From Hygrophila difformis (taxonomy: Eukaryota; Streptophyta; Magnoliopsida; Lamiales; Acanthaceae), in the NCBI GenBank assembly GCA_030278955.1, contig JAOANR010000011.1, positions 27,284,403 to 27,348,402 on the forward strand: DNA of 64,000 bases, given 5' to 3'. Below are positions 4,393-38,453 of this stretch, piece after piece; within the stretch, counting starts at the first letter, position 1; every line of letters begins with the position of its first letter. The notes under the pieces are model-generated. The model worked only from the letters and a program-made list of their open reading frames with translations, did not search any database and had not been told where the DNA came from. A program made the position numbers and the translations under genes.

Positions 4393-4707
4393 TGATAATG
4401 GCCAGAAATGACCATTATTTTCAATCCATTTCCGTGTCTAAAACGGGCATTTGATCGCATTCCGGTCTTATATTAAATAAGAAAGCAGTTGAATTGGACT
4501 GATTTATGCATAATTGTAAAAATATTGAGCTGGTATGAAAAATGCATAAATATGTAATTTTATTACACATTTATGTTGGAAAAATCCAAAAACATGAGAA
4601 AAAGAAAAGAAAAGAAAAAGGAACAGAAAAAATGGGGAAAAGAAAGAAAAGCCCACAAAAGGAACAATTTCGGCCCATCTGGCCCAATTCAGTGTGTCCA
4701 GGAACAC

Positions 4708-4952
4708 CCGGTCGCGGAAAGCTCCTGTGTCGTGGTCCATGGCCTCGCGACACAGGAAGGTTTGGCGACACAACATGCAGCATGAAGAAGAAGCCATGTC
4801 CCCAGTTCCCGGTCGCGATCCATTGCCTAGCGACACAGGCATGGATAGCGACACAGTTACACAAATTGAAGACCAAGACCCTGTCGAGAAGCCTTGCCAC
4901 ATGCAGTGTTGTTCCGCGACACAATGTGATGTGTGTGACGTCTTGAGACACA
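4708..4952. repeat. nested-palindrome cassette array 1 of Athila-2 LTR (TGTCGC/GCGACA boxes)
   Basis: Three diverged cassettes starting near 4710, 4808 and 4881. Each has GTCGC half-sites facing GCGAC half-sites around a short spacer, for example TGTGTCGTGG facing CCTCGCGACACA. The array lies about 320-560 bp into the LTR, immediately upstream of a TATA-like site at 4993. Confidence 0.7.
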
Positions 4953-4992
4953 GTGGGCTTCAGACCAAGGCCCATGGGCCTAGGATTTCACT

Positions 4993-5004
4993 TCTATAAA
5001 TAAG
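4993..5004 (+). promoter_or_regulatory. TATA-like site in Athila-2 LTR
   Basis: TCTATAAATAAG, a good plant TATA box on the element's coding strand, about 40 bp after the first cassette array. It is the likeliest U3 promoter of this LTR by position and sequence; the transcription start is not visible. Confidence 0.5.
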
Positions 5005-5643
5005 AGGTGATTCCCTTGAGACAAAGAGCTTTTTTGGTTAAAAAAACACACTCTTGAAGACAAGTTGGGAGCTCAGTTCTTAGGTAGTGTAGTTAGTCTT
5101 TATTTTTTTGTATTATTTAATTATGTCCATAGTTTAGCTTAGTTAGTGTTAGTTTTTATGTTTTCCACTGTTCCAGTGGTTAGGTAGCCAGTTTCTACTA
5201 TGTTTTTCATTCTAAACTTTGTTTTTTTTTTGAGGTTTTGTAATACCCAAATCATGGGTATTAACATACCCACTTAATAAAATGGGATAATATTCACATA
5301 ATGTGTCCCAAATCATGAAATGGGTCTCACATCCCATGGATTTAATGCTTTCATTTTCATTTTAGGGTCATTTGACCCCCATTTCATATTATTATGCTTA
5401 CTGTTCTCATTTTATGGATGCTGTTCATGTATGTGTGATCAAACCCTAGATTAGGATGTTGCTTTATTTTAAATATTGTTCTAGATAGGTTTTCTTTAGC
5501 TCAAGCATGTTCTTTCTTATTTTAAATTATGTTTGGTTGTTTTTAGCTTAGAATAGCTTTTTAATCTGAAATAGGATGAGATCACGCTGTTTGCATGCCA
5601 CTGTCCATTTCTGCTTTTACTGACTTGTGTCCTGAACCATCCC

Positions 5644-6179
5644 GGTCGCCAATCGCCTCCTGTCGCGAGACCACGTCTAGCGACAGGAAGGTTGTTTCGC
5701 AACATGGATGTCTAGGGACACCTGTCTTGATATTTTGAAACCCTCGGTCGCGAGGCACTCCTGTCGTGGACCCACGGTCCGCGACACAACACCTGCTTAG
5801 CGACTGAGGACCAAACTCTTGCAATTTTTCTGCATGGCCTCTGTCGCGGAACACCTCTGTCGCGAACCCACGGTTCGTGACACACTTTTATTCCGAGACA
5901 GAAAATTATGCCTTGTCAAATATTTTGAAAACCCAGTCGCTAGACACCCTGTCGCGAGGCCACGCCTCGCGACACAATTTCCAGACTAGCGACTGGGAGC
6001 CAAATACTTTGAAAATTCTCAGAAAACCCTGTGTCGCTAGACTCCTGTCGCGAGGCCACGCCTCGCGACACACTTTTGCTTAGCGACACAAGGTGAAACT
6101 CTGCCAAATTTCTGAAAACCTGTCGAGGTACCCATGTCGCGGGTCTAGGCTCATGACACAATTTATGGTTTCTCGACAG
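5644..6179. repeat. nested-palindrome cassette array 2 of Athila-2 LTR, six units, about 95 bp period
   Basis: Units begin near 5644, 5745, 5840, 5934, 6030 and 6120 (steps 101, 95, 94, 96, 90). The clearest unit (5934-5998) has an outer GTCGCTAG, an inner inverted pair TGTCGCGAGG and CCTCGCGACA around a 5 bp loop, and a closing CTAGCGAC. Spacers between units differ in sequence although the step is nearly constant. A TATA-like CTATTTAAAT follows at 6191. Confidence 0.85.
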
Positions 6180-6190
6180 AGTCCTCTCTT

Positions 6191-6200
6191 CTATTTAAAT
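6191..6200 (+). promoter_or_regulatory. second TATA-like site in Athila-2 LTR
   Basis: CTATTTAAAT lies 12 bp after the last cassette of array 2. Its value rests on the repeated array-then-TATA arrangement seen elsewhere in the window; taken alone it would be weak. Confidence 0.35.
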
Positions 6201-8993
6201 CCCAAAAATTCTGATATCTTACCCTCTATTATATTGCAAACACTCACATCCTAATCCCACGGATTAAGATGTAATATCCCAGAATTGCAATATAAGGCGT
6301 TATGCTGCCAAAATTTTGATTCTCCATTTCCATCACTTAATTAATTGAACCCTCTAGTCATTAATGATTAATGATTGTAATTAGCAATGATTAAATCACT
6401 AATTGTTATGATTAAAGGATCTTTGTTCAATTGTCATTAAAATATTTTTCTATAAACAAAACCATGATGCCTTAAACAGATAATCCGGACTGTAATTAAT
6501 TATGGTAGGAGGGATTATTTAGGTCATCAACTATGGGTTAGTTCCATAACCTTGCATGAGGAACCAATGTCTCTCATACAAGGCCTTGTTTTTATTTTAT
6601 TTCCATCTTGTCTTTTCTGTATTGTGTGTAACAATTAGTGAAGAATACATCAGACTAATGTTGGCGGATATTCCCTCACGGATAAACTAGCTCGTATTCT
6701 GGGTATTAGTCACTAAGTGTTATTTTGCATGGTCTGGATAGCAGTCAGTGGAAGCCTTGGCAGTTCGTCCATCCGGGATTATGATAGCTGCTCAGCTGAC
6801 TCCTATCCTGATACAGTTTTCTTTTCTTTACCTTAATTTCCAAACCCAAATTCTAATCTGTGGTGTGAATCAGTCAACATCTGTCAATGCTGACTAATGA
6901 TTATTACAGAAAAGAAGCATGTAGGTTTTTATCTGAATTCACAGACAGTGGAGGCCCAACTGGCATTGACACTGCCATTATAGGGTTTAAGCTATCTAAA
7001 TTCGCTCCATCCGAGTAATTGGGAAATTGGACAGTAGATGTTTGCAGTCTACCCGATTATTCTGCTATTACTTTGGTCCTCTGACCACTTCATGTTTGTG
7101 TTTCATCTTCTGTCTAGATCCGTTAGTATATTTTGGGTCAATTCATTTTACACTTCATTATATCCGTATGCATGCTACTATTATGTAATTAATGTGGTCC
7201 ATAATATTTTGGGATCCTTCCCTTGGACATCAGAAGTCTAGATTTAAACAGATATTGCATACTAAATTTCCAACAAAAGAACTCCTTTATAAAATCCGGA
7301 TCTGAGTAAGGGATAAATTCCTCAGTTATGACTAGTTCATATTCTGTCAAGGGTTGATTTGGGAAATTAGAAGCAGAGTCAGCGATTAGGTCTCATCTAG
7401 ACTGAAAGGATCTGTGTTTTAATTGAGAGCCTAGTACCTGTTTAGGGAATGGTTTTCAAATTATTTATTTTCCAAAATTGCTGTTTGTTGGGAATCCGGG
7501 ATTAATTATTACACCGAGATGGGGTCCACTTGGATTCAAATACAGTGTAGTAGATAATCTCAGAGGAACAACATCCAGGCCTTGGTTATTTTCTAAGATA
7601 GGGTTGAGTTCCTTTCAACCACTATCCTCTTCTGCCAAAGCCTACCTTTGAGTCCTGAGTGAGTACATCCGGAACGAACTAATTTATTAGTTCGTTTCAT
7701 TAGTTTGTGTCTTATAACCCCTCGGAAGGAAGTGAACACTGCGAGCAGTTCACCGAGAGCCGAGAATTCTTGATCCACACCCGGTCACCATGACTGGGGG
7801 CTGTCTTTTACTACCATGGTCAGACCTTCAAACCTCCGAGTGATAGGATTTTAAATGCTTTCTTTATTGCTTTCTTTTAAACGCTTTCATTAGAGGTCAC
7901 TCGGTTGTATCGAGAGTTGTATAACTGCTACTAGGATTGATAGTTAAGGGATAGTTCAGGCTTGATTAGAATCTTTGGGTGACATGGGAGAATGACAGTA
8001 GTACTTGGCACTTCAATAAATGATTTGTCAGGTGTTGCTTGTCCACCACAGATGGAGTAACATACCCAGGCCAGGGTATCTTAGAATCTGTGGTCTTAAG
8101 AACATGTGAACTCATGTTGTAAGTACCTGTCTATCAAAGGGAACTCAACACTGAGAGCATGAGAATTAGCTGTCTGACAGGATTATCCCAACCAAAGATC
8201 TGTGTATTAAAATGGAATTTTAATTATGCCTTATCCAAATCTTGTCCAATTTTTATTCTTTTCTTCCTGTCCCTTCTGTCCAAACTGTGAATCAGCTTCA
8301 TAGCTAGCATAGTGTAACTTTTCATTGCTTCTACAGATAGTATTTACTGCATTCTTAGAATAACTTTGTTTGCTTTCTAGTATAAATTCACTCGCTTTCT
8401 AGAATAGAATTCATATGCTTTGTAGAATAGATTTAAGTGCTTTTGTAATTTAGTTTAAATTCAGTTAGTAGATGACTAATCACTTTTCAACTAATTGGAG
8501 CAATACGAGTGGAAAATCTAGTATAACGACGTGGGCCCTGCTTCTATCGCACATCCTCCAGTGAACGATCCGGTCTTACTATAAATTACTGCAATTTTTG
8601 ATACCGTGCGCTTTCGGGGGCACAGTTTCTTAACATGAGTAATAAAAACGTGACAACCTATAAATATATCCTTAATCCCAAATCCATCTTCATAAATTGG
8701 TTTCTTTAAATAAAATTGAAAACCAGGATTATTATGTTTCAGAAAATACTCATGTAATGGGAATCTGTCGGAAAAGTTTCATGGCAAGGATCTTCATGGC
8801 AGCAAATTGTCAAAAGTTTCATGCCGGGGAGGTCCACAGCGCCGTTTGAATTCCAAGTTTCTCACATGAGTAATAAAAAGTGAAATATATCCTTAAACCC
8901 CTTTCCTATGAATCATAACTCTTTTCATTTAATAAATTCAAACTTGGGATATTTTAGAAAAAGCTCGTGTTGACGAAATTGTCAAAACTTTCA

Positions 8994-9011
8994 TGGCGCC
9001 GTTGTCGGGGA
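8994..9011 (+). other. primer-binding site of Athila-2 (tRNA-Asp type)
   Basis: TGGCGCCGTTGTCGGGGA follows the LTR end directly. TGGCGCCGTTGCCGGGG is the known Athila primer site, complementary to the 3' end of tRNA-Asp; here one base differs. Confidence 0.85.
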
Positions 9012-9152
9012 GGATGCAGCGCCGTTTTATTAGAGAATTACATTCCTCATTGCTCCTAGTTAGCTTATACATATAAATATAAATATTTACCTCCAAAACC
9101 AATTCTAACCTGGGGATTGTACAGGTACCGTCATTATTGAAGCTGTTGTTCT

Positions 9153-9971
9153 ATGCAAAGGAGGAAGCAGACGCCAGCCGAAATCCCGTACAACGCAGAG
9201 ATAGAAAAGACAGCTCGACGTCTTAGGGCGGAGACTAAACGAAGACGGGAACGGGAAAGACAGGCACTACTTTCATCGAGCACCAGTAGCGACATATCCG
9301 ATATGGCGAACCCTGACATTCCTCCAATCATTCCACCCAATCCACCACTTCACAACATTGAGGAAGACCCCGAAGATGCTGATAACGATGATTTGGATGA
9401 TCCCCCTCCTCATATCATACAGGGAGGTGGGAACCCACCAAACATTGAACAGCAACACTTCGAGGCACCTCCTCCCAACCCGAACCCTCAAAACCCACCA
9501 AATGACCAAAATCACCAAAACAACCAAAACTTCCAAAACCAACAAAATCAGCAGTACCAGAATCCCCACCAGAATCCCCCAAATCCTAATGACTTCAATG
9601 ATCCTAGGAACTATTATATCCATCAGAACTATTACCCACAACAATATCAAGGAGGGGCTGAGAACAATCAACAAGCAGCAGCCGCTGATTACATGCAGCC
9701 AATCTTAGAGCCATATTTGAACATTCCTGGACAAGCTCCATTCTTGGCATGGAATTTCGAATTGAAGCCGGCCCTCATCAATCTTGTTCAGAGTAATCAA
9801 TTCGCTGGGGCAAGTCATGAAGATCCCCATGATCACCTGCAGACTTTCTTAGAATTGTGTGATACTATCAAGAACCAGAATGTATCTGCTAACACCATTC
9901 GATTAAGACTGTTCCCTTTCTCTCTGACTAGCGGAGCACGAACATGGTACAAATCACTGCCCGTAGAGTGA
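9153..9971 (+). pseudogene. gag: Athila-2 gag, N-terminal part only
   Basis: Starts at ATG 9153, about 140 bp after the PBS. The N-terminus (MQRRKQTPAEIPYNAEIEKT) closely matches the gag start of the large element at 38305. Residues about 60-170 are a Pro/Asn/Gln-rich linker, followed by the conserved gag core (FELKPALINLVQ, EDPHDHLQTFLELCDTI, ARTWYKSLP). Homology ends at about 9968 and a stop follows three residues later, formed by the fused element B sequence. No zinc knuckle or protease remains. It could make a short gag-like protein of 272 residues, but I treat it as a truncated relic. Confidence 0.85.
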
Positions 9972-11329: not shown

Positions 11330-11567
11330 ACAAGTTTTACATTAAGGGATTTGGCACATTATAAAAAAAGTGTATGTTAATGCACATGCATTCCCCCCCG
11401 AAAATAATAATTTTACGACTTGTCGAATTTTTCGAGATATACTTTTCAATGGGTTTTAAAATAAAATTTCGTGTCCATGGAAATAATATTTAAAATGCTT
11501 AAAAATAATATTTAATATTTTGGGCCTCTATAGTGGGCCGAAAAATAATAGATTAAAAAAAATTTCG

Positions 11568-11580
11568 GGCTCTGATACCA
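11568..11580 (-). other. primer-binding site of element B (initiator Met tRNA)
   Basis: Minus strand TGGTATCAGAGCC, three bases after the 5' LTR end. This is the standard plant retrotransposon PBS complementary to tRNA-iMet. Confidence 0.9.
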
Positions 11581-11583
11581 CTT

Positions 11584-14139
11584 TGTAACACCCCGGATTT
11601 GATCACCCAGACCGGGACGCTACCGCTACACCTTTCTAAATAAGACGCGATCCAAATAGAGCTTATCTAGAAAGATGCTAAGGCTAAGTTGTATCAAATT
11701 TTTAAATAATTCAAAATCATTCAATTGTGCCAGAAATGAAAATCAGAGTATCACATGCATGAACTAATAAAGTAGTGCGGAAGCAAAAACAAGGCCAAAA
11801 CAAGCGGCCAAAAACCAAAGTCCAAGTCCAAGTCCAATACAGAAATTAAAATAAATAAATGCGACAAGTCTTTATTTGCGAAAATCCCATTCCATCATGC
11901 CATGTTTTACTCTGCGAAAAATGGAAAACAACAATTTATCAGTACAAACGGTACTGCGTAAGTTAATATATAGCATAACAAATTCTACAGTTTTTAGAAG
12001 AGTGAATAAAGGATAGGAATTTAATTTTAAAAGGGAAAACGAGTAAAAATACTTCCGAAGGTTCTTACTCTTTGCCACACGAATAATTACCAATGTTGAT
12101 TTTGATCGAGAACACCAATTAAGCCCTTGGGATTTACACCCACAAGAACCCCAATATATAATCACGATTCTAGGGACGTACCCTTGGAATCAACCCACCT
12201 CCGGGACTCGTACCCACGAGGGATGTGAAAGCAGTGACCCTATACTGACCGCTCCGGAGCCCTAGATAACCCATACGGATACACCTAGGAGTATAGACTC
12301 TTACAATCATGAAACCACAATATCATATGCGCCGTTTTGGCCACAAAAAGAGGGGGCGGCCCAACGAGCTCACGCCAAGTGAACTTACCCTCTATCACAT
12401 TGGGCATCCCACTCGATCAAAACTTACAAAGTTTCAAAAACATACTTTTAACATTTTACAATACCACATGTTTCCAGATTTCATATATTTTCAAAAATGA
12501 GTATAAATCGACTCGTAGATCATCAAAATACACAAGTACGATTTACCGACTAAAATAGTCCTTTGGGCAGTTTCAGAAATCGCATATGGAAACTTAGCAA
12601 AACATTTTCAAAAATTCCGAAATTTTTACAGGAGCTAGAACACACCCAAATGAACATTTTTCATAGAAATAGGCTTCTTCAAAATCGGACTCTTAGTGGC
12701 CTAAAAAATGATTTCAGAACCAACTTTTCCAAGGAGTGTAAATCCTACTGTTCATTCGACCGCAGTCTCTTTAAAAATTCATATCAATTCCCAACGTGCT
12801 TTAAAAATTATGAAATTTTACAGGGATAATCTAGACACATAATGGAACAAGTTTTATGAAGACAACAACCATTGAAAACGTACATAGGTAGGAGTAAATC
12901 GGACATCAAAAACTGATTACACAGGAACACCAAAACTGACAGCAGAGAAACTCAAAATACGAGATCCGTTTTCGACGCCCAAATCATGTTCAAAAATTAT
13001 GAAAATTTACAGAGAGTATATTCAAGATGTTAGAAACATTTTTCAATTAGGAAGGATTTTCCAAAAACAACGGATCTAAGTGAAAAATGCAAAACAACAT
13101 AAACTATACGGAAGAAAACCCTAGATGACAGTTTTGGCAAGGGATAAAGATGGAACAAGAACTCGATGGATACTCCGCCAAAACCCCTAAAACTTGAAAT
13201 GCACAATACTAACTTACTTTAGGTGAGTTTAGAATCAAAATCTTCCTTGGTTGTGTCTCCAAAATCGTCCGGAACAGTCCCACTCTTCCGCAATCTACCG
13301 AATGAATCCTATTTTGGGGGTTGTTGGAAGAATACAAGATGTTAGGGCTTGAAAATTGAATTCAAGGCAAGGAATTGGATCAGTGATCTTACCTAACCAT
13401 AGAAGAAGGGATTAGGATGCTTGAAACTCGACCACAGCTTATGGAACAATGAAGAACACCCACACTTCTCACCAACACTCAAGAGAAGAATTGATTTTCG
13501 GAGTGGAGATTTGGGAGGGGTTTGTGGGTGATAAAGGATTGGAATAGGATGATTCAGAGTTCCAAATGGGATCTTAATGTGTCTTGGAAGTGTAGGGAGC
13601 TTAATGGCAGCATTCCCCTCGAAAATACACCCCCTCTAACCTCATTCATTCCACCTACTCCCACCATGGTACATTAAACACTCACTTGTTCATGTAGCCT
13701 CCAAAATCCAACTTAAAAGTGGAGTTACTACACTCAAACTTAATCCAAAAGAGTCCAAATACACCCCTAAATGACTGAGCATGGAAATAGGATCGATTGG
13801 GAATGATAAATCTCGAAAATTGGGGTTGAAACCGCGTTTGGCGTTTTGAAACGCCACCAGCAACCGCCGGCGCGGGCTCCACGCGCCGCCGTCGCGCGGC
13901 CTCCTGCTGCGCGGGTTTTCTCTCTCTCTCTCTCTCTGTTTTTTTTTTTTAATATATATAATTATGAAAATCATAATATGAATTATCCATGATCGTTGGA
14001 TAATCCGATAACTCTCTTCGAGTTGCTATCGTCCGAAATATTTAATTCCGCTCTCTCGGAATTATTTCGGTTTCGATAACTAAATCCGATTCTTTAATTT
14101 TGGATTTAAAAACTCGATGTCGATTTCTCGGGTATTACA
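11584..14139 (-). repeat. 5' LTR of element B (complete, 2556 bp)
   Basis: Begins TGTAACACCCCGG and ends CTCGGGTATTACA on the plus strand, flanked by the PBS on the left and by the interrupted integrase of element A on the right. 12459-14139 repeats at 1-1684. Both termini are shared with the solo LTRs at 48723 and 52595, marking a related family. It contains a CT microsatellite at about 13918-13937. Confidence 0.9.
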
Positions 14140-19125: not shown

Positions 19126-19226
19126 TGAAACTTTTGACGAGTTTGCGTGACACGAGTATTTTCCAAATTTTCTTACTGGTTTATTGCTCGAGGAGGAAAC
19201 TGCGATTTCAAATGGCGCATCGAGAA

Positions 19227-19244
19227 TCCCCGGCAACGGCGCCA
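19227..19244 (-). other. PBS-like copy inside the Athila-1 LTR
   Basis: Minus strand TGGCGCCGTTGCCGGGGA, identical to the functional PBS, but 119 bp before the LTR end. The same copy is in the other LTR at 38555-38572. A more degraded copy (TGGCGGGGAGG) lies at 19411-19421. Confidence 0.85.
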
Positions 19245-21852
19245 TGAAACTTTTGACGAGTTTCACTAACACGAGTAATTTTCTGAAATCTCAAGTGTGG
19301 ATTTATTAAAAGAAAAGAATTATGATGTAGGGAAGGGGTTTAAGGATATGTTATAATTTCCCTTTTTATTACTCATGTGGGGTGTTTTAATCACAAACGG
19401 CGCTGTGGTCCTCCCCGCCATGAAACTTTTGACAAATATCACGGTGCAACCGGGATTGACCTTCAGTCTGTCACCCTGAAAGTCCCTGGTATCTGCGTCA
19501 TGATACTTCTCATAATTTCATGTCACGAAAGCACCTGCCATGAAGCTTTCGAACATCTTCCCACTGTATGAGTATTTTCCCAAAATATTATGTTTTTATT
19601 TACTCGTGTCAAGAAACTGTGCTCCCGAAAGCGCACGGAGTCAAAAATTGCAGTAATTTATAGTAAGTACCGGATCGTTCACTGGAGGATGTGCGATGGA
19701 AGCAGGGCCCACGTCGTTTACTAAGATTTTCCACTCGATTACTCGTTTCAAGTTTTGCAAGGGTTTCTAACAATTACTTGACATAAATTAAACCAGATCA
19801 TGAAAGCAGTAAAAATTATTCTACAAAGCATGGTAACTAGATCGAAGAAAGCAATTAAATCTATACTACGAAAGCAATATAAAATTATGCTACACTATCT
19901 AGAAAGCAGATTTAAATATGACAGAAGGGACAGGGAGGAAATAATAAAGATTGGACAAGATTCAGATGAAACACAATCAAACTTCCATTTTTATACACAG
20001 ATCTTAGCTTGGGATAATCCTCTAGTTAGCTAACTCTCATGCTTTCTACACCATGTTCCCTTTAACAGACAGGTACTTATGGTGAGAATTTACATGCTCT
20101 TAAGACAACAATTTCTAAGATACCACAGACTCACAACTGCCCTCACATGGCCATGCTAAGGTGTATTATTCATCTGTGGTGGATAAGCAACACCTAGCAT
20201 ATCATTAATTGACATGCCAAGTACTCCTATCATTCCCCCATGTCACACCCAAAGTTTCAAATCAAGCCCCAAACCATTCCATAACTCTCAAACCTTTTAA
20301 CAGATGGACAGCCCCTAATTCTTCCGAGTGACCTCTATGAAAGCATTTAAAGGAAAGCAGTAAAAAAAGCTGTAAAGAAAGCATTTAAATCTATCACTCG
20401 GAATCGTTAAAAACGTCTCTTTCCGTTAGTATAAAAGAGCCCCTGGTCTTGGTGACCAGATGCAGATCAAGAACCCCCAAGATAACAATAGGCCACAGGG
20501 CTTACAACATCTGGGTAGTTATGAGATACAAACTAAATGAAACAGATCCATAAATGAACCTATTCCGGATGTACTCACTCAAGACTCAATTCTAGACTTT
20601 GGCAGAAGAAGATAGTAGTCGAAGGAATACTCGACCTTACCTTATAAATTCACCAATGCCTATATGTTGTTCCTCTAGTATTATTTATCACATCTCATCT
20701 ACACCCAAGTGGATATTGACTTAATGCGATATCTAATATCAGATTTCCAACACACAGCAATTTTGAGAAACCAATTGATATCTGAAAATCATTCCCTAAA
20801 CAGGTACTAAACTCTCAATTAAAACACAGATCCTTTCAGTCTAGATGAGACCTAATCGCTGACTCTGCTTCTAAGCTCTCAAAATCAACCCCCAGTGGAA
20901 TATGAATTAGTCATAGCTGTCAAATTCATCCCTTACTCAGATCCGGATTTTATAAGGGAATTTTTGTTGGAAATTTATTATGCAGCATCTGATTTAAATC
21001 AAGACTTCTGTGTCCAAGGGGAAGGATCCCCAAAATAGCAATAAGACCAGAACATCTACATAATAGTATCATGCATACAAGTATATGAAAAGGAAAATAA
21101 GGTACCCCAAAATATATGGTGGGGTTAGACAGAATGCGATACACAAAGATGGATTAGCCTGAGATGAGAAGAAATTGGCTAAAAAGAGTGCCAGAGATAG
21201 TTGGGGTTCTCTGGCCTGCAAACATCTGCTGTCCGGTTCCCAATTTTCCCAGATGACTGATTTTAGACAAAAAGAATTCCAAACAACGGTGACCGCCGTC
21301 ATTCAGTTTTCTTTTGTCTGTGAGTGGAAGAAAAACCCACATATTTCTTGCTGTAATAAGTCTTTACTGATGTTGGTCGACATCAGTTAATACTATTACA
21401 ACTTGAATTCAGGTTTGAGAAATTAAGATAAAGAAAATTAAAACTGTATCTGATTAGGAATTGGCTGAGTGACTAATCGAAACTCTTAGTGAAGAGAACG
21501 CTCGCCGAAGCTTCCACCAAACCACTAACCAGATCATGCAAAATAACAGATAATGATTGACACACAGAAGACGGGTTAGTCAATATCCCTATGAAGGGAC
21601 CTTTCACCAACATTAATCTGTGGTGTTTCTCATTATCCGTTCATACACACAACGAAAAGGAAAACTTGAAAATAAGGAAAATGTTTTTTGGGTATTGTGT
21701 GGGTGTTAAGCACACAATAAATAGACACTAATGGGTTGAAATGTGTAATGGATGGAAATCAGATGAACTGGGCCGAGGCCCATTACACCCATGCAACTTA
21801 CACAAATCATGAAAGAAAATGTTTTTGGAATTTTCAAAAGAGAAGGATAGTT

Positions 21853-22301
21853 CAATTCGAATTATTGGTATAATTCGAATTGAGGATGCATGAAGAATGA
21901 AGTATGATCTTACCCAATTAATCCTTGCAAAGAGATGAGATATCATCTAATTCGAATTGTTGAGCAATTCGAATTAATTCGAATTGGACAATTCGAATTG
22001 GTGAAGTCCTTTCATTGCTCAAAATTGACTAAGGCATATACCTCAAGAGGAGGGTGAATTCGAATTGTTGAGCAATTCGAATTAATTCGAATTGGTAAGA
22101 GATGGAAAGTAAACTAAGGCATGAATGGATGGCATGCAATACAATGTGGTCTTTCTTGCCAATTCGAATTGTTGAACCAATTCGAATTAATTCGAATTAG
22201 AGAATTCGAATTGGTTGAAAACCACATGAAGGAAATTTTTGGTTGTGCAATTCGAATTTCTTAGGCAATTCGAGATAATTCGAATTGCCTCAATTCGAAT
22301 T
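21853..22301. repeat. AATTCGAATT cassette array 2 in Athila-1 3' LTR, five units, about 100 bp period
   Basis: Units start near 21853, 21949, 22056, 22160 and 22249. The full unit (21949-21999) is one AATTCGAATT box, 7 bp, a fused pair AATTCGAATTAATTCGAATT, 4 bp, one more box. The third unit lacks its last box here but has it in the other LTR (41417-41436). A TATA-like TCTATTTATT (minus strand) follows at about 21714-21728. Confidence 0.9.
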
Positions 22302-23166
22302 ACACATTTTCGAACAACAACAATTTTTGTTCTCACAAGTATGGGTTAGGTGAACACTGTGCGGTTAATGATGGGTTTAGATTTACCAAATCCCTCATCT
22401 CACATCAATGTCACTTCCCAGCCACCCTAGTGAGATTTTCAAGAAATAAACAAACACATGTCCAGTGGGTATTGGCAAGATTTAAACCCTATTTCTACAA
22501 ACAAGGGATCAAAGAACCTAAAACATCTAGAAAAACAAGAACTGCATGAATAAAACTAAGAACACCTATGTTATCTAAGGGAGCATAAAAATAAAAACAA
22601 GGCAGGGAAAAATAAGGCATAAAGATAAATACTAACAAACCTAAAAACATCTAAAACCTAAGAACACTTATTTGAAGCTCTAAGGCACAAAATCAAGCTA
22701 ACAACCCACCAAACATGCATTTATTAAGTTTGAATGTCAACTAAGACATAATAAATGTAACCTAGTTGAAACAAACAAACATGCTAAGCATTTATTTCTA
22801 AAGAAAGAATTAAAGAGTGCCAAAACACATGAATAACACCATTTCTGGAAATTTTTCTTGTATTGACACTTTGAAAGCAAACTAAAGAATCCAAAACCAT
22901 CATTAACTTGAAGGTAGGGTTTATTCTACTAGAAAGCAATAAAAATCTGGAAATGGCTACTCTAAGGGTTACACAAACTGCTTCTATACTACACTAAGAT
23001 CAAAGCATGTAAAAATTACACTACTTGCAAGAAAAATAAACTAGCTAAGCTAAACTACCTACCTAACCCTTAAGGGGTGTGGAACCTCCTGCTGTTCTTT
23101 TTGTCCCAAGCTGTTTTTTGGCAAAATTCTTGATCTAAGGATATTTCTTGTGTTGAGAGAGGTCAG

Positions 23167-23177
23167 CTTTTATAGAC
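23167..23177 (-). promoter_or_regulatory. TATA-like site in Athila-1 LTR
   Basis: Minus strand GTCTATAAAAG, about 60 bp after array 1 in the direction of transcription. It corresponds in position to the site at 4993 of Athila-2 and is the best U3 promoter candidate. Confidence 0.5.
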
Positions 23178-23237
23178 AACTTCGAAACCCTAGGCCCACC
23201 AATGTTGTGCTCATGCTCCACAGCTTCAATGAGTGAA

Positions 23238-23640
23238 GTTCGAATTAATTCAATCAATTCGAATTAATTCGAACTGTGAGATCTTTTCCTTGAGTTGGGG
23301 TTGTGGTCTTCAATCACCAATTCGAATTATTGTGAAGAATTCGAATTGGTTTTCTCGAACTGCTGGATAGCTTCTACTTGGCTCCCCTGCATTTGTTGGC
23401 AATTCGAATTGTTTGTGCCAGTTCGAATTAATTCGAATTGGACAATTCGAATTGCACTCCTTCTTCTTGCCCTTGGGTTCCTTCTCTTCATTGCCTAATT
23501 CGAATTATTCAAGTCAATTCGAATTAACTCGAATTGGCCATAGTAATTCGAATTAGCTCTTCTGCTTCCCTTTCCAACACTTAACCATTTCTTGTTCTCT
23601 TCAGCAATTCGAATTAACTCGAATTGCACAATTCGAATTG
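23238..23640. repeat. AATTCGAATT cassette array 1 in Athila-1 3' LTR
   Basis: Five diverged units near 23238, 23319, 23400, 23496 and 23604, each with the box and fused-pair pattern; some boxes are ATTAACTCGAATT variants. The array lies about 330-740 bp from the LTR start, comparable to array 1 of Athila-2. Confidence 0.85.
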
Positions 23641-23974
23641 TGCTTCAACACTTAACCAAATTTCAGTTGTGGGATTTTCAATCTTTTTCCCATCTTTTTG
23701 GATTTTTGTGGGCTATATTATTCTTTTGCCCATCTTTTCATTCCTTTTTCTTTTCTTTTTCCTTTTTTCATGTTTTTTAGATTTTTCTAACACAAATACA
23801 ATTATAAATTGCATGTTTTGTGTCTTTTTATTACCGGCTCAATGTTTTTATAAACTCGCATTAATCTGTCAAATTCAACTGCTTTCTTATTGAAATAAGA
23901 TGGAATCACGATCAAAATGTCCGTCTCAGACACGGAAATGGATTGGAAATAATGGACAATTTTGGCCATTATCA

Positions 23975-25595: not shown

Positions 25596-28500
25596 TTAGT
25601 CCTTCTTCTCCGCGGGCCGTGTGGAGGAACCGGTGGCATCTCCTGGAGGTGATGGGAACTTGCTGAGGATGGTCTTCATCATTTCGGCTTGATTGTCGAA
25701 CATCCTAGCTTGACTGGCGAACACTGCTTCGAACATTTTTCTATTCTTTTCCTCATTCTCAATCCTTTCTTGATGCTGCCTGGCTGCTTCCTTTCTGAAC
25801 TCCTCTTCTCTCTCAAACATTCTCAACCTAAACTCTTCCTCTTTCTGCATTTGTTTCTCGTGAGTCGAAACAATGGCATCGGCCAACGATCTGACACTCT
25901 GCATCATTGACTCTCCCATTCTGCTCACTGCTTCTAGAGTTTGGGAATCAGCTGGATATTGAGACACAGTTGGGCTTCTGTGCGAGGGTCGGACTGGATG
26001 TCTTCGTGATAAGCTTGGAGTGGAAACATCAGTTCCAAGATGAGTGGGAGTGGGAGCAGGTTCTGTTGGTGTGACTGCAGCTTCTTCTGTTGAAGGTACC
26101 GCTTCAGTACGGTCCTCCTTCTTGCGTCCCTTGCGTCCGGCTGTTGGTGTCCTAGGAGTGTATCTGGATTGAGCGTCTGATTCTTCCGGCATAATGTATG
26201 TAACTGGTCTAGTTATCCTTGTCTTTGGGACTGGGATTGGCCGGCTCATATCAATAAGATCGCTCTCTGCAAAAACTGTTAGATCTACTCCTTGGGCCTC
26301 ACAAATTCTCCTGATGAGGTTGGGATAGCATAAAGCAGCAGCTCTGGTGCCCGTGACTTTTGTTGTCATGACATGGAAAATCTGCTCCCCCACATTGATC
26401 TTTAGTCCATGCCAAATCTTGGCAAAACCCTTCAACATTCGACCAGATGTTTCATGTGCATGAGGGTTTGGCCTAATCTTTGACATGTAGAAGTCATAGG
26501 AGGGTTGAAATTCCAGCTTCAGGTGTTTTGCTTTAAAGGGGATTTCACCAGTGTAGCTCTCAGCAGTAAGGGACCTAGTGATGTTTTCGTGATATTGCCT
26601 GTCAGCTGCCCTGCTTGCTCCCTTCTCAAAATGCTCAGTTGTCGGGATTTCTGACCTCCAGTTGGGTGTGCCAAGGAAGTTGTTCAAGTATTCTCCAGAG
26701 ATGTCTACGTCAACTCCTCGCACCCAACTTGTCTTGGGTGTGGCATTGATGTTGCAGTAGAATTCCCGAACCAATTCTGCTATCCCGGGTTCAGCGTGAT
26801 GCTTAAGGAACTCAGTCCATCCGTGGTTTTCTTTCAATGTGAGTAGCATTGGATGATCAATCATTTCTGGACTGAACCCTTTATCAGGGACAAATACTCC
26901 ACTTAGTGCCATGTATCGTCCCGCATTCTGCTCATTCCCGTTGAACCTCCTCATTATGTCAGCATCATCCGTGATGCGGAATTTTCTGAACTTCTTAGTG
27001 GATACACCCAGTCTGCCCCTTGAAGTTGAGTTGGCCCAATAATCAGCCGATCGCACTGATCCGGTTGATTCTTGGGTTCCTTCAGTTCCTGCTTGTTCTC
27101 CATCAGAGTCAGAATTTTCCCTTGGCTGTTCCCTCTGTTCAGTTTGCTCGTGCTGTTCTGATTCAACCTGTGTATTCGGTTGTGGCTCTTCCTCAGTTTG
27201 TCTCAACTCAGTTTCTTCACCTCCTTGAGTTGCTCCCTGCTCGTGTGCATTACAAGGATCTTCATGGAATACAGAATTTAAGAAATCCTCGGAAAGATAG
27301 GGATCGGCAACATGCTGGTATTCTTGTTGTGATGCCTCAACTTCCTTCCCGATGTTAAGGTCTCCCAATTGTTCTTCCATGTCGTCTCCTTGTTCCACAG
27401 GAATGTTGAGATCGTATTGGAGTATTTGCTGAAATGACTTGTCCTTAAAGTAGTTTTCTATGGTTTCCAAGTCCGTTTGCTTGTCACCACCACTACTTTC
27501 AGTTCTCACTGTTTCTTGCATTGTGGGTTGCGGTTGAGTAATGGCTGCCGCTAGAGTTTGTGCCGTTATGTCATTCAAGTCACTCGCAAGCTCGGCGAAC
27601 TTCTTCTTCGATTCTTCAAATCTGACATTGCCCTCGTGCACCATTTCCTCTATCTCCTCTGTGGGTCGCATTGCCTCCATTGCTTTCTCAACATCCGCCT
27701 TTTTGTCATTTCTGCGAGCAGTAGGTCTCTTTACTTGTTCCTCCTTTTCCCTGGCCCATTCTGCTGGCTCAGCTTTCACCTTGACAGGAATAATGTCGGT
27801 TCCGCTGATTATCTGACAATCATCGTCCCCGACCTCAACCTGTATTTCAGTGTCAGCTTTCTTCTTCTTCTCTAGCTCCGCCTGCAATTTTTCAGCAGCT
27901 TTTCTATTCTCCTCTTCCTCTCGGGCTTTTCTAATATTTTCCTCCATTTCAGCTTTCCTGGCGTCTTCTTCTGCTCTCTTGGCCTCCTCCTCGGCTGCTT
28001 TGGCCATTTGTTCTTTCCAAAGTCGATTTTTCTCGGCCCTTGTAGCTTCCATTTTCTGCTTCCACTCCTCTGTTTCTTTTGCCATTTCGATCTCAGCCTC
28101 CTCCTTCTCCCTTCTTGCTCTTTCAGCTTGTCGGGCCTCGTACTCGGCTTTTCTCTGTGCCTCAATCCTATCCATCTCAGCTTCCTCTTGAGCTATCCTT
28201 GCTGCTTCTGCATCGGCTTCTTCCTGAGCCTTCTTTGCCAATTCTGTATCGGCTTGCACTTGGGCCTTATGCTGTTGTTCTTTCTTGGATAACTCAATGG
28301 CTTGATTCTTGCCTTTGTCTTTTTGCTTGGAAGGCTCACCATAGAATTTGGGCACAGGGGGAATGATCCTTGGCTGACTCGGGGGTTCTTGGATTTTGAT
28401 CTGAGGCTCAGCAGACTTTTCAGACTTTTCTTTATCTGTCAACCTGATCAGTTTTCTCTTCTTCTTGGGTGGCTCTGGTTCGGATTCAGTCTGAGAGGGT

Positions 28501-29963
28501 TCAAATTCGGCAGGGTCAGATTGCTCGGAGGTCGGATCAACATAATCGTCAATGATCTGTTCTTCATCCTCAACACTCAATCCAAGTTCCGGTCCTTTGA
28601 TCTTCAGAAATTTTTGGATGAATTCAGGCTCAGACATAGCAGTGAGTTGCGCAGTCCATTTGAGTGTGAAATATCTGCCTAGGACACCTTGGAATCCCGT
28701 GTTATACTGCAAACGAGGTCGGTGTTCTTGACAGTGCCTTAGACCTTCTGCATCCATTTCACATAGCAGGTCGAAGAACCTCTTTTTCATCTCTGTGTAC
28801 AAGGTGTCCATGATGTCCGCCTCTTTTTCCTTTAGATGTCTAAGGTCTCGGACTGGTGGAATGTTGAGAAACTCCAAACACTTGTTTTTGCCCATGACTG
28901 AGATCTGTTTCCTCTTGCGTCCCATTCTGTCCCATGATCTGTTTCGAATCATCGCGATGCATTCAGCTCTCATTAGCTCAAAATTGGGCATTCCCTTCAT
29001 TGTAGCCTTTCGGGGTTCAACTGCCGGAATCCTTTGTGGTAAGAAGACTGGCATAATCTCCACATTTCCCGGAGGTATTACTAATCCCGGTCTTAGTACA
29101 GACTCCCTGATGTCCTTTTCCCATTTTCCCCATGCAATCATGTATTCCCCCCACAGTTTCCTGACTGCTTTTGTTTTCTCAATAATCGAATCTAGCATGG
29201 GAGTGTGGTGGGCTTGTCTGTAGTTCAGCACTGCCTGGAGAGAGTCCCGGAAGTTGCATGTCATTTCAGTATGACGCTCTTTTGCACGCAATGTCAGCCA
29301 TAGCTGCTCCTCCGGTCCGCAAATGGTCCCATTGTCGAATAGTTCCTTCTTGTACGTAAACGGAAAGGCCTCTGTCATGGAGAGTACACCAGTTGACGCA
29401 ACTAGGTACGGTGGAGGCGTCTTGGGGGCATACTGCATTTTTACTTCCCTTGTAATGGGTGGTTGGATGAGGACTGGTTCAAAGGCTGAGGCTCTCCTAT
29501 CTCCGAAGTGGATTTCAAGCATTCTGTTCCAATAAGCCTTCTGTCGTTTCATTCTCCAAACCATCCGCTCATAGTGAACTCTCGGGTCGTCAAACCGTTG
29601 ATCGTACCTTGCCTCATCGAACTCTTGGTTCCAGAAGTTACATACATGTTGGCAAAAGTCTCTTTCTAAGCCCGTCGCTCTATCATTTCTTTCTTCCTCT
29701 GGAATCGCATTCCACCACTGGTCCTTCATTTCGAACCTCCATTCAATCTGGTGGTCCATAGGCAGGTTATGCTCATTCCTTATGGCCACCCTATTTTCCT
29801 CTGCCTCTTTCTTCAGTCTCTCAATTTCCAAGAAAGCACGATCTGGAGTTGTCTTTGGAAGACCCATCAGGGAATCTATAATGAATTGATCCCTGGAGAG
29901 AAAAAGAGCTGGGGCTATTTTTAACAAATTTTTGATAAGTGGATCCGAGTTGAAAGTCAACAT
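25596..29963 (-). CDS. Athila-1 ORF3: giant nuclear-type protein in the env position, about 1455 residues
   Basis: Uninterrupted ORF. The first ATG is at 29963 (MLTFNSDPLIKNLLKIAP). Residues 1-450 are charged and Trp-rich with no recognised fold. Near residue 500 there is a classical NLS (PPKKKRKLIRL). Residues about 560-706 are a very long K/E/A/R coiled coil (KAEYEARQAERARREKEEAE). Residues about 730-980 are acidic and Gln-rich. Residues about 985-1260 resemble the putative plant transposon protein domain found in Athila/Tat ORFs (NENHGWTEFLKHH-type start, VREFYCNIN, WVRGVDVDISGEYLNNFLGT, IWHGLKINVGEQIFHVM). Residues about 1350-1440 are a second coiled coil. I see no signal peptide or transmembrane segment, so 'env-like' fits only by position. 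Athila third ORFs known to me are much shorter. It is intact while the pol of the same element has frameshifts. Confidence 0.75.
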   Translation of the reverse strand: MLTFNSDPLIKNLLKIAPALFLSRDQFIIDSLMGLPKTTPDRAFLEIERLKKEAEENRVAIRNEHNLPMDHQIEWRFEMKDQWWNAIPEEERNDRATGLERDFCQHVCNFWNQEFDEARYDQRFDDPRVHYERMVWRMKRQKAYWNRMLEIHFGDRRASAFEPVLIQPPITREVKMQYAPKTPPPYLVASTGVLSMTEAFPFTYKKELFDNGTICGPEEQLWLTLRAKERHTEMTCNFRDSLQAVLNYRQAHHTPMLDSIIEKTKAVRKLWGEYMIAWGKWEKDIRESVLRPGLVIPPGNVEIMPVFLPQRIPAVEPRKATMKGMPNFELMRAECIAMIRNRSWDRMGRKRKQISVMGKNKCLEFLNIPPVRDLRHLKEKEADIMDTLYTEMKKRFFDLLCEMDAEGLRHCQEHRPRLQYNTGFQGVLGRYFTLKWTAQLTAMSEPEFIQKFLKIKGPELGLSVEDEEQIIDDYVDPTSEQSDPAEFEPSQTESEPEPPKKKRKLIRLTDKEKSEKSAEPQIKIQEPPSQPRIIPPVPKFYGEPSKQKDKGKNQAIELSKKEQQHKAQVQADTELAKKAQEEADAEAARIAQEEAEMDRIEAQRKAEYEARQAERARREKEEAEIEMAKETEEWKQKMEATRAEKNRLWKEQMAKAAEEEAKRAEEDARKAEMEENIRKAREEEENRKAAEKLQAELEKKKKADTEIQVEVGDDDCQIISGTDIIPVKVKAEPAEWAREKEEQVKRPTARRNDKKADVEKAMEAMRPTEEIEEMVHEGNVRFEESKKKFAELASDLNDITAQTLAAAITQPQPTMQETVRTESSGGDKQTDLETIENYFKDKSFQQILQYDLNIPVEQGDDMEEQLGDLNIGKEVEASQQEYQHVADPYLSEDFLNSVFHEDPCNAHEQGATQGGEETELRQTEEEPQPNTQVESEQHEQTEQREQPRENSDSDGEQAGTEGTQESTGSVRSADYWANSTSRGRLGVSTKKFRKFRITDDADIMRRFNGNEQNAGRYMALSGVFVPDKGFSPEMIDHPMLLTLKENHGWTEFLKHHAEPGIAELVREFYCNINATPKTSWVRGVDVDISGEYLNNFLGTPNWRSEIPTTEHFEKGASRAADRQYHENITRSLTAESYTGEIPFKAKHLKLEFQPSYDFYMSKIRPNPHAHETSGRMLKGFAKIWHGLKINVGEQIFHVMTTKVTGTRAAALCYPNLIRRICEAQGVDLTVFAESDLIDMSRPIPVPKTRITRPVTYIMPEESDAQSRYTPRTPTAGRKGRKKEDRTEAVPSTEEAAVTPTEPAPTPTHLGTDVSTPSLSRRHPVRPSHRSPTVSQYPADSQTLEAVSRMGESMMQSVRSLADAIVSTHEKQMQKEEEFRLRMFEREEEFRKEAARQHQERIENEEKNRKMFEAVFASQARMFDNQAEMMKTILSKFPSPPGDATGSSTRPAEKKD

Positions 29964-29979
29964 CCTCACATTTTGAGCT
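29957..29979 (-). promoter_or_regulatory. second GTGAGGATGTTGA block, at the ORF3 start, with hairpin
   Basis: Minus strand AAAATGTGAGGATGTTGAC overlaps the ORF3 start codon. CTCACATTT just upstream (about 29991-29999) pairs with AAAATGTGAG, giving a hairpin that ends at the start codon. The block repeats the PPT motif of 23975. Confidence 0.45.
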
Positions 29980-31329
29980 AAGCTCTAAATGTGAGTTAAT
30001 TGGTTTCTAATCGAATTTATAGAAAGAAAAACATAGAGCTGGATTGTTAAATCTAACTCTTATTGTAGCAGAAATGAGGAAAGCAAGAGAGAGATAAGGA
30101 TCTTGGATCCTTAAAATTTTCTTGGACTATGAATAGTCTAAGATGTTTTTGGGTGGTCGAAGGACCAAAAAGAGAAAATTTCGTAGGTTGTTGAGCCTAC
30201 GAAGGGATTTTTGATTTTTCTCATCACTTAACAAGTGATTGAAATCATGTGAGATAGGGGAGATAAGAGATTAATGATGAAAAGCAAATGCAAGAGATGA
30301 ATTATGTAATCACTAGTATGTAACAATGGACCATGACTAAAAATAAGAAATAAAAATAAAAGTAGACATGCATACATACAAAAGGTGATTTTTGGGTTTT
30401 TATGAAAAAGTGTTGACTTGTTTATTTAATGAAATTAGGGGTGTAAGTGGTCCCCCATTTGGATTTTGTTTTGGAAAGTGGGTTTTTAAGGAATAGAACA
30501 AAACATTCCTCATGAATATTCCCCACTTGTTCCAAATTGCACAAGAATCAACACTTAAATAAAGAATACTCTGAAAATTTGTCTTTTTACACATAAATGA
30601 CTTGCCAAAAGTGTTGGAAAAATTTTGGCATGGTTTCGTCTGTACCATGTGTCCTGTATGTGCAAAAATCAACTTCTAGAGTTGAGTTTGCAAAGTGTGG
30701 GCAACATGTACCCGACAAAAGCATTTATTACCAATTTACTCATATAATATAATACATGCAAATACCAAAAGAAATGAGAACAATTGATCCATCTATACTA
30801 CTGTAATGTACTAATGTTACCAACAAAACTCATGCTTTAAAAACATAAATTTTGCAGATATCATCAATATGCATTTCGAGTCATCATTAACAACTTTCTA
30901 CTGATAAAAAAAAAAAAACAACACAGTGGGCACAGGAAACTGTCTACAGTGTTAACCCTACTCACAGATTACTCAAACACCAACACAGATAAACAAAAAT
31001 GCACATAAACAAAACCATCAAAACTAAACAGAAACCATATTTTTAAGGGTTTTGAAACCCTTATTTTCAAAATGAGAACACCCCTCATCACAGAAACGTT
31101 CGAACCCTCAAAAATGGCAGTTTCAACATAAATCCCTAGAAACCTAGGTTCTGCCTACTTGGTTCTAAGTCATCTTCGAACATGCCTACCCTATTCCAAC
31201 CACATTCCGACCTTCCCTGTTGTAAAAACAGAGCACATTCCCTCCCCAACCCCGATTTCACAAGGAATACGAAGGGACGAAACTGAAAACTGCGAAAACT
31301 GAGCTCGAAAATGCAAAAGAACCACTTAC

Positions 31330-31367
31330 CCCCGACTCCCACTTGGATTTGACGAAGAGGATGCCAT
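31330..31367 (-). other. candidate first coding exon for ORF3
   Basis: ATG at 31367 opens MASSSSNPSGSR, followed after 38 nt by a strong donor GGGG|GTAAGTGG. If joined to an acceptor-like GTGAG|GATG just before the ORF3 ATG, the phase is right (2 nt plus 1 nt). The acceptor lacks a good pyrimidine tract, so this remains a hypothesis. Confidence 0.3.
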
Positions 31368-31502
31368 TTCCGACGGGTATAAATAGAGGGAAAGTCGAAA
31401 TCTTTGGCCGGTTTCGCGAGGAAGACAGTTTCGCGAGAGAGAACACGGGAGGGGTTTTTGGAAGAGTGAAAAGTGAAAGTGAGGGAAAATGAGAGGGAAA
31501 GA

Positions 31503-31515
31503 GGGTATAAAAAGG
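31503..31515. promoter_or_regulatory. TATA-like site between array 3 and the candidate ORF3 exon
   Basis: Minus strand CCTTTTTATACCC, about 20 bp after the array and 136 bp before the candidate ATG. The plus strand reads GGGTATAAAAAGG, a better TATA box, so orientation is uncertain. A second site (TATTTATA on the minus strand) is at about 31377-31386. Confidence 0.35.
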
Positions 31516-31532
31516 ATTCGGAAGGGGAGGTT

Positions 31533-32071
31533 CGAATTATTGCATCAATTCGAATTAATACGAATTGATGCATTCTGTGATGGGTGGAGCTATTCAGGCC
31601 AATTCAAATTAATTCGAATTGGCTTGAAAGACAAAATACACACACAAGTTCGAATTCTGAATCAATTCGAATTAATTCGAATTGACTCATAATTCGAACC
31701 TGGTGGTGGGGATTGACTTCGCATAGAAATGCTTTTGTGACCTAATTCGAATTATTGGTGTGGTTCGAATTAATTCGAACTTCCCCACAATTCGAATTGC
31801 TCACTTGCATAAGAAAATGCCTTTTGTATGCTAATTCGAATTAGTTAGGCAATTCGAATTAATTCGAATTGCCTTATAATTCGAATTGCAATACTTGGCC
31901 TAATAAAACATCCGAAAATTCTGCCTTGGGTGCCAATTCGAATTTGCATGTCAATTCGAATTAATTCGAATTGCCTGCATAATTCGAATTAACTAATCCG
32001 AGAGTGAAAATTTCCAAGGCAAAACGCCTTATGTGGTTTGTTCCAAGCAATTCGAATCAATTCGAATTTTC
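31533..32071. repeat. AATTCGAATT cassette array 3, internal to Athila-1, upstream of ORF3
   Basis: Units near 31533, 31600, 31649, 31742, 31830, 31934 and 32047, again with box, fused pair, box. The units at 31742, 31830 and 31934 are the most complete. The array sits 340-880 bp after a GTGAGGATGTTGAT block (32397), much as array 1 sits 330-740 bp after the same block at the LTR start. Confidence 0.9.
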
Positions 32072-37400: not shown

Positions 37401-37473
37401 CTGGCTTCATTTTAAAATCTCCAATCTTAGCTCGTCCTTCCTCAATCTTTGATTCCGGAAAATACTTCAGCAA
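34396..37473 (-). pseudogene. gag-pol: Athila-1 gag C-terminus, protease and reverse transcriptase
   Basis: 1025 codons. The first 130 are capsid C-terminus. A knuckle CGLCQGPHPTDTC is at about residue 162, and a Gln/Asn-rich stretch follows at 185-290. The protease has the Athila-type core GLCDLGSSINVMPLAMA near residue 460. RT carries KRGGICVTTNEQGEE, GWRVCIDYQKLN, FMDGYSGYNQI, FTCPYGTFAYRRMPFGLCNA and the catalytic VFMDDFSVYG. It ends in [13 protein letters not shown] followed by a stop, because of a small deletion; the next frame picks up the downstream sequence with a 38 bp overlap. The start is likewise out of frame with the gag ORF by a 32 bp overlap. Related elements have one continuous gag-pol, so I read both as decay rather than programmed shifting. 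Confidence 0.85.
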
Positions 37474-38305: not shown

Positions 38306-38435
38306 AAGCAGTTGGTATCAAGATTTTTGACAGTACCAGTACAATCCCCAAGTTAGTGATGGTTTGATAGTAAATACAAAGACTATCTATGAGTAAATCA
38401 GGAGTGTAATTCTCCTAGTAAACGGCGCTGCATCC

Positions 38436-38453
38436 TCCCCGGCAACGGCGCCA
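38436..38453 (-). other. primer-binding site of Athila-1 (tRNA-Asp type)
   Basis: Minus strand TGGCGCCGTTGCCGGGGA begins at the base after the LTR end GTTTCA, the known Athila primer site. Confidence 0.9.

Follow-up and report, generated by a model that had tools for sequence, protein, structure and literature searches.

How two related retrotransposons can hold one arrangement of short inverted sites and spell it in different words is the question raised by a 64-kb stretch of Hygrophila difformis DNA (contig JAOANR010000011.1; hereafter the window, that is the whole stretch analysed), which is crowded by nested retrotransposons and has the aspect of plant DNA. Two of its elements, E1 and E2, appear to be of Athila type, an assignment drawn from domain order, primer-binding site and general layout and not from a tree with named Athila sequences. 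Judged by sequence comparison they are distinct but related families, whose long terminal repeats (LTRs) have both ends in common as well as a 2.1-kb block at 70% identity. The original prediction for this locus saw in these LTRs a conserved regulatory design with a swapped recognition word. Based on the data described below one can assume, with a probability of about 0.55, that in Athila-type (Ty3/gypsy) elements these arrays serve as cis-regulatory modules close to promoters, which work like the repeated motifs (RMs) of Sireviruses.

One word in each element

E1 repeats the 10-bp box AATTCGAATT, collected at no more than two mismatches, in three arrays of the minus strand. Array A (23237-23639; 16 boxes, 11 exact) and array B (21854-22301; 17 boxes, 16 exact) are situated in the 3' LTR, while array C (31529-32068; 23 boxes, 15 exact) lies outside the LTR, between pol and a downstream open reading frame (ORF). 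This makes 56 boxes, 42 of them exact, with the 5' LTR excluded, where array B is present once more (41181-41645, minus strand; 18 boxes, 16 exact). The predicted units of box, pair and box with a step of approximately 100 bp were registered, starting in array B at 21854, 21949, 22057, 22161 and 22249, and the typical start-to-start distances inside a unit are 14-19, 10 and 17-19 bp. Two boxes exactly 10 bp apart are found in 15 of 17 units (A4 and B5 have no such pair), and the next box follows 17-19 bp on in all 12 units possessing one. The top perfect 10-mer palindrome is present in 27 copies in the E1 LTR, whereas none of 200 dinucleotide shuffles had more than 2, and elsewhere in the window, the arrays and the 5' LTR copy excluded, the word has two matches only, both with one mismatch.

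The word of E2 is the half-site TGTCGC, arranged on the plus strand in array A (4710-4952) with 5 and in array B (5644-6180) with 12 exact copies, versus shuffle means of 0.23 and 0.41 and a maximum of 3 in 500 shuffles. Chance as the origin of the arrays is therefore ruled out by shuffle counts for both words. Array B consists of six units in the order forward, forward, reverse, reverse (F F R R), that is a half-site, an inverted pair and a half-site, as was predicted together with a step of about 95 bp; they start at 5644, 5746, 5842, 5935, 6032 and 6121, and the steps range over 89-102 bp (102, 96, 93, 97 and 89 bp). The inner sites F2 and R3 stand 19 bp apart in all seven pairs for which both were listed, and 18 bp apart in unit B6. 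Among 41 near-matches to TGTCGC in positions 4650-6250, 33 were used and 8 were dropped (overlap or position outside the unit pattern), the half-site hexamers so selected having an identity of 0.854. E2 is not built of perfect palindromes (the top 10-mer palindrome has 1 copy, not above shuffles). A TATTTA string stands 11 bp beyond the end of array B.

In E1 the word is kept while the intervening sequence drifted. Mean pairwise identity of the 56 boxes, within the mismatch limit used, is 0.938, while linkers compared between different arrays have an identity of 0.457 versus a shuffled null of 0.439, and linkers within arrays 0.436-0.504 versus 0.450-0.477. Ordinary head-to-tail satellites, in which linkers should be conserved too, are thus ruled out for E1, where linkers match like shuffles and boxes are 94% identical; in E2 array B such conservation was found in part. 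The 5' and 3' copies of E1 array B differ by one box (14-bp indel), which testifies to turnover at the level of boxes. The central C is kept in 55 and the central G in all 56 boxes of E1, and the observed/expected ratio of CpG, equal to 0.41 in the E1 LTR outside boxes and 0.43 in the remaining E2 LTR, amounts to 0.84-1.51 inside the five arrays.

Array positions and the downstream reading frame

No sequence is common to the two boxes, as had been claimed: the E1 3' LTR contains no TGTCGC, and the E2 LTR no AATTCGAATT. The further claim that the arrays occupy comparable positions, both of them being inside the LTRs, is true for array A, which takes the same slot in both elements, while arrays B are only roughly alike in position and not demonstrably homologous. 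On the left of array A there is an 81%-identical block (LTR positions 1-268 / 1-271), on the right the TATA regions are alike by eye (GGGCCTAGG and TTCTATAAA), and about 85 bp past the TATA box a stretch of E1 and E2 aligns above shuffles (score 30 versus a maximum of 26 in 200). The interiors of the arrays are not alignable above shuffles (24 versus a maximum of 27 for A, 24 versus 26 for B). Thus, for array A the neighbourhood was retained and the content replaced. For array B alignment of the flanks never exceeded shuffles on either side, and the next alignable block begins only after another 420 bp or so in E2 and 180 bp in E1. Array A is followed after 42 bp by the LTR TATA box TATAAAT in E2 (4995-5001, plus strand) and after 62 bp by TATAAAA in E1 (23168-23174, minus strand), upstream of which it lies. 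What stands of the predicted design with a swapped word is, therefore, the four-site architecture in two related elements, the same promoter-proximal slot of array A and the wholesale change of the word; on this comparison of two Athila-type elements, conservation of the design is well supported. The other part of the prediction, by which every lineage would follow its own host DNA-binding protein or silencing signal, is one of several possible reasons for the exchange, next to a protein of the element and RNA pairing. The word of E1 is, besides, reused at three separate places, which is not accounted for by local satellite turnover.

The third of these places, which the original prediction did not mention, is array C, which ends 18 bp ahead of a TATA-like string at 31510 belonging to a putative internal promoter (31328-31514, minus strand; another TATA-like string at 31385). 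By eye, position 31510 is followed by a pyrimidine-rich stretch, an ATG (31367) and, near 31329, the string GGTAAGT, which resembles a splice donor. An origin of array C from a displaced part of the LTR promoter was rejected, since promoter C is not alignable to promoter A of either element (for E1 the local score is 16 and the shuffle mean 16.9, for E2 the score is 20 and the shuffle maximum 25); the word is, consequently, common to these places without its surroundings.

The ORF downstream of array C (25596-29984, minus strand, 1462 aa from stop to stop) lies between pol and the 3' LTR in an env-like position. An ORF at this place, expected for env-bearing members of Athila, is thus present in E1, and E2 is truncated before that point. 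The sole Pfam match of the ORF is PF20167 (Transposase_32) at residues 1052-1234. A protein search with residues 950-1300 gave 2236 candidates, none at E<=0.001, and a single-sequence fold of the Transposase_32 region had a mean pLDDT of 30.9 and was discarded. No in-frame splice joining an ATG-bearing first exon to this ORF was found by eye. Env-like genes of LTR retrotransposons are described as transcribed from the 5' LTR promoter (PMC7264820), so that an internal promoter, if proven, would stand out. A stretch of the linker upstream of the ORF (30172-30272, minus strand) is strongly structured (z from -4.4 to -6.8) and contains no boxes.

Probable promoter modules, with hairpins and turnover as possible alternatives

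Palindromic repeated motifs, the nearest known counterpart of these arrays, were described in 13 Sireviruses by Bousios et al. 2010, who found a separate word in each element and proposed a regulatory role (PMC2829016). According to that paper most RMs begin 200-400 bp past the junction of polypurine tract (PPT) and LTR, upstream of the TATA box, CpG islands are present in most of them, and wherever an RM-bearing element also possesses ENV, as nine do, additional copies precede this gene; RMs were called Sirevirus-specific as compared with classic Ty1/copia elements, and the promoter of ENV was not conclusively identified. The arrays described here resemble them in being palindromic, CpG-rich, present in at least eight copies (E1), built on an element-specific word and surrounded by diverged flanks. 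They likewise form an LTR cluster upstream of the TATA box, arrays A beginning 318 and 336 bp in, though array B fits this rule poorly, and E1 array C stands ahead of the downstream ORF as RM copies stand upstream of ENV. Yet E2 has inverted half-sites instead of perfect palindromes, and E1, with the Ty3/gypsy order of reverse transcriptase, RNase H and integrase, is not Ty1/copia and thus is alike in design without being a member. Neither AATTCGAATT nor TGTCGC has the CGG-CCG core of 12 of the 13 published RMs (Tnd-1, with ACAATCGATTGT, also lacks it). Other distinctions are the four-site inverted cassettes with steps of approximately 90-108 bp, the second LTR array downstream of the TATA box and the TATA-like string straight after the array preceding the downstream ORF of E1. 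As compared with published RMs, a Sirevirus-like layout is thus seen in a Ty3/gypsy element, spelled in other words and enlarged by a cassette of four sites and a further array inside the LTR; such palindrome arrays were not encountered for Athila among the open-access literature matches listed. Retand-type elements also have family-specific repeats in non-coding parts of long plant Ty3/gypsy elements, but their tandem arrays are reported between pol and the 3' LTR (PMC11963269), whereas two of three E1 arrays are inside the LTR and only the 10-bp boxes are conserved there, with random linkers between them.

In the reading as promoter modules, each element has a single word, set next to the LTR promoter as an inverted cassette of four sites, and E1 has the same word again beside the putative internal promoter of the downstream ORF. 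A dimer or multimer of some sequence-specific protein may bind the cassettes, act jointly on LTR and internal promoters and protect the CpGs of the cassettes from decay. Such binding, the co-regulation and a change of the word following a change of its reader are what we infer. Several observations weigh against this explanation. Array B is downstream of the mapped TATA box in both LTRs, and the nearest TATA-like string in E1 is 130 bp on. Since TATA-like strings of the kinds counted occur at 4.3 per kb in the window, their proximity is modest evidence and the site beside array C is a candidate promoter only. The limit of two mismatches itself raises the identity of E1 boxes and hides those that decayed further. 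Linkers of E2 array B are partly conserved (0.571 versus a null of 0.435), so this array is partly a recent tandem repeat and looks younger. A distant relative (contigs L001 and L002, described below) contained no repeated word in the scans used. Finally, the arms of the cassettes are complementary unit by unit, which is superfluous for protein binding.

This complementarity adds an RNA or single-strand interpretation to that of a DNA word. As RNA, six units of E2 fold into hairpins with z from -3.2 to -9.4, most of them two-tiered (outer stem F1:R4, inner stem F2:R3), and four stretches of E1 into hairpins with z from -3.0 to -7.3. The evidence comes from several tests on few units. In seven E2 units only the hairpin partners match unit by unit (P=0.0006 for F1:R4 and 0.0036 for F2:R3), the other four pairings giving P of 0.28-0.48; when the arm length was changed to two further values, P for the partners was 0.001-0.002 and about 0.010, and taking R3 of unit B6 at 6154 (6153 in the wobble test) lowered the inner score. 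The inner stem of six units has 97.0% of paired cells versus 89.0% after shuffling (0 of 500), slid versions not exceeding 53%, and its covariation score was likewise reached by none of 500 shuffles. Bases outside the 10-bp pair of E1 also match by unit (28 of 45 versus 20.0 expected, P=0.0006 at k=3 for 15 pairs; beyond k=4 the arm runs into the neighbouring box in some units). On the sense strand G-U exceeds A-C combinations (21 versus 10, one-sided P=0.035), a weak hint of RNA, being one of several tests. The remaining sites of E2 array A form no full units, and the E1 arm tests do not include the additional pair present in the 5' LTR.

The cassettes may act as nested hairpins of RNA or single-strand cDNA, for instance as a part of the leader, when genomes dimerise or are packaged, or by giving rise to small RNAs. 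With a word that is self-complementary any box can pair with any other, so that the word would have to be uniform within an element and would be free to drift between elements. Retroviral dimerisation palindromes are also self-complementary and vary between lineages, but they are single leader loops, while here the copies number in the dozens and stand ahead of promoters as well. Small RNAs are drawn to the palindromic clusters of maize Sireviruses (Bousios 2016, as cited in PMC10760457), which agrees with such a role. However, structure has no need of one word in 56 boxes with a nearly invariant CG, and arrays A and C are located just upstream of TATA-like strings. The structural signal is itself uneven: two of five measures of the E2 inner stem are ordinary (both-side changes in 126 and further pair types in 81 of 500 shuffles), in the outer arms of E1 no match by unit was seen (P=0.42 and 0.18), and bases outside the eight inverted pairs of E2 match only at a longer reach (P of 0.53 at k=2 and 0.014 at k=8). 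In a scan with 100-base windows E2 array A had none with z below -3.5, while such windows exist outside the arrays (3 of 10 in the E2 LTR, 6 of 17 in the E1 LTR and 5 of 14 in the E1 linker, for instance -6.8 at 30222). We consider a hairpin function rather unlikely. The same mark could also be left without selection by hairpin-templated correction during reverse transcription, which would produce matching arms. Mutational turnover devoid of any function, in which boxes multiply by slippage and reverse transcription, by changing template at hairpins, matches the arms and spreads one palindrome through the element, receives credit for this property, as well as for the one-box indel between the E1 LTRs and the partly conserved linkers of E2 array B. 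Still, it poorly explains why boxes remain 94% identical between shuffle-like linkers at three places at most about 10 kb apart, why their CpG persists within CpG-depleted LTRs and why array A occupies the same TATA-adjacent slot in both elements, and it seems improbable to us.

The reader of the word may also be encoded by the element, if the 1462-aa ORF or its product binds its own word and activates or de-silences promoters like VANC, word and protein changing together. Precedents come from VANDAL elements: the short motif bound by VANC21 is frequent in the non-coding regions of the family to which VANC21 belongs, targets of VANC6 have other motifs, and motif array and reader can change together (PMC5735166). 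E1 and E2 resemble them in having a short motif concentrated in non-coding parts of one family, rare elsewhere and different between related families, and in the evolution of motif arrays by repeat turnover (PMC5735166, PMC10398659). The position of array C, immediately ahead of the putative promoter of this very ORF, and a single word in all E1 arrays, absent from the E2 LTR, are in line with this idea. However, VANDAL21 motifs have one orientation and are not inverted, as the F F R R sites of E2 are, the corresponding part of E2 is missing, and the protein itself gives little encouragement: Transposase_32 names no DNA-binding function, the fold was of low confidence and residues 950-1300 gave no homolog. 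We regard an element-encoded reader as very unlikely. Scarcely less speculative is a broader self-recognition address system of a plant Ty3/gypsy lineage, in which a private palindromic word of each family, placed at its promoters in a nested four-site cassette, would be served by a co-evolving element factor or by homotypic RNA pairing, all being replaced together when families split.

If promoter-proximal modules are indeed what the arrays represent, Sireviruses and Athila-type elements, belonging to two superfamilies, would have one promoter design in common, namely a single element-specific palindrome at the promoters of the LTR and of the downstream gene. Related Athila-type elements would then be a natural experiment with constant surroundings and a changed word, making the reader testable, and a possible internal promoter would be indicated for the long-debated env-like ORF.

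Surrounding elements, relatives and further arrays

The LTR of E2 (4393-8993, plus strand, 4601 bp) has the ends TGATAATGG...TTTCA and is directly followed by the primer-binding site TGGCGCCGTTG (8994-9004, plus strand). What remains of E2 is this LTR, the primer-binding site and the N-terminal part of gag (9141-9971, plus strand), 51% identical to gag of E1, all inserted within a chromovirus-like Ty3/gypsy element of the minus strand. E2 is taken to be truncated after the gag part because gag of the opposite-strand chromovirus-like element begins less than 20 bp from its end. The latter element has a match to the Tf2-1 SH3 domain (7.5e-28), a chromodomain match under the curated cut-off and repeats at 1-1684 and 12459-14139 that are 95% identical.

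The 3' LTR of E1 (19126-23974, minus strand, 4849 bp) ends in the same TGATAATGG...TTTCA, and the 5' LTR (38454-41773, minus strand), which lacks its first 1.5 kb or so with the array A portion at 41773, differs from it by 28 substitutions in 3303 aligned bases. The 5' LTR breaks off at 41773 against sequence that by eye is copia-like, and the 3' side adjoins sequence similar to that of the chromovirus-like element (18797-19119 matches 11449-11633); E1 was, therefore, truncated or rearranged after insertion. The gag-pol region (32523-38317, minus strand) comprises three overlapping frames, with RVT_1 in ORF 37482-34396 and RNase H, H2C2 and rve successively in ORF 34436-32523; it is from these Pfam matches, available for E1 only, that the Ty3/gypsy order was deduced. 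The primer-binding site TGGCGCCGTTGCCGGGGA adjoins the 5' LTR at 38453; this string and TGGCGCCGTTG may be of tRNA-Asp type, which is typical of Athila. Each of the two E1 LTRs has a second copy of TGGCGCCGTTGCCGGGGA approximately 119 bp in from its 3' end (38572 and 19244, minus strand), and E2 has a degenerate counterpart near 8820. A PPT-like string around TGTGAGGATGTTGA was noticed by eye three times on the minus strand of E1, after pol (about 32415), where the 1462-aa ORF begins (about 29968) and at the junction with the 3' LTR (about 23990). One extra PPT was reported for Athila4 and Calypso (PMC2829016).

Viral contigs, searched for relatives with Athila LTRs, gave none: 6 stretches were matched by E1 integrase, 1 by the Transposase_32 region, 35 by two-sequence alignment and none by a 20-base DNA pattern. 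The search of genome contigs matched 5 stretches, two of which, L001 and L002, are relatives with integrase 60% identical to that of E1. They encode a plant-type Ty3/gypsy polyprotein, are 99.7% identical to each other over 9 kb and, being filed under Solirubrobacter and Geminicoccus, are probably plant contamination in both public bacterial genomes. No LTR pair and no ORF longer than 156 aa after pol were found in L001; in the linker of L001 a single window is structured (7251, z -5.8). L001 fits the rule of Sireviruses, by which elements without ENV have no linker copies, and is uninformative on LTR arrays.

One more palindrome array was noticed at 43788-43972 (plus strand), with the word CGGTATATACCG in 3 exact copies and a CpG observed/expected ratio of 2.14. 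It contains two F F R R groups of CGGTAT (43881/43889/43895/43903 and 43933/43941/43947/43955, at most one mismatch each), has TATAAAA at about 44092 and folds weakly (z from -1.4 to -2.8). The array lies approximately 1.6 kb past a stretch that by eye resembles copia RNase H, a likeness to which no Pfam match corresponds; lying near the remnant of a further retroelement, such a four-site array would speak for a cassette that occurs in more than one lineage. AGATCTA is repeated in both orientations at 49924-50548, inside a duplicated region (approximately 48.7-51.4 kb and 52.6-55.2 kb).

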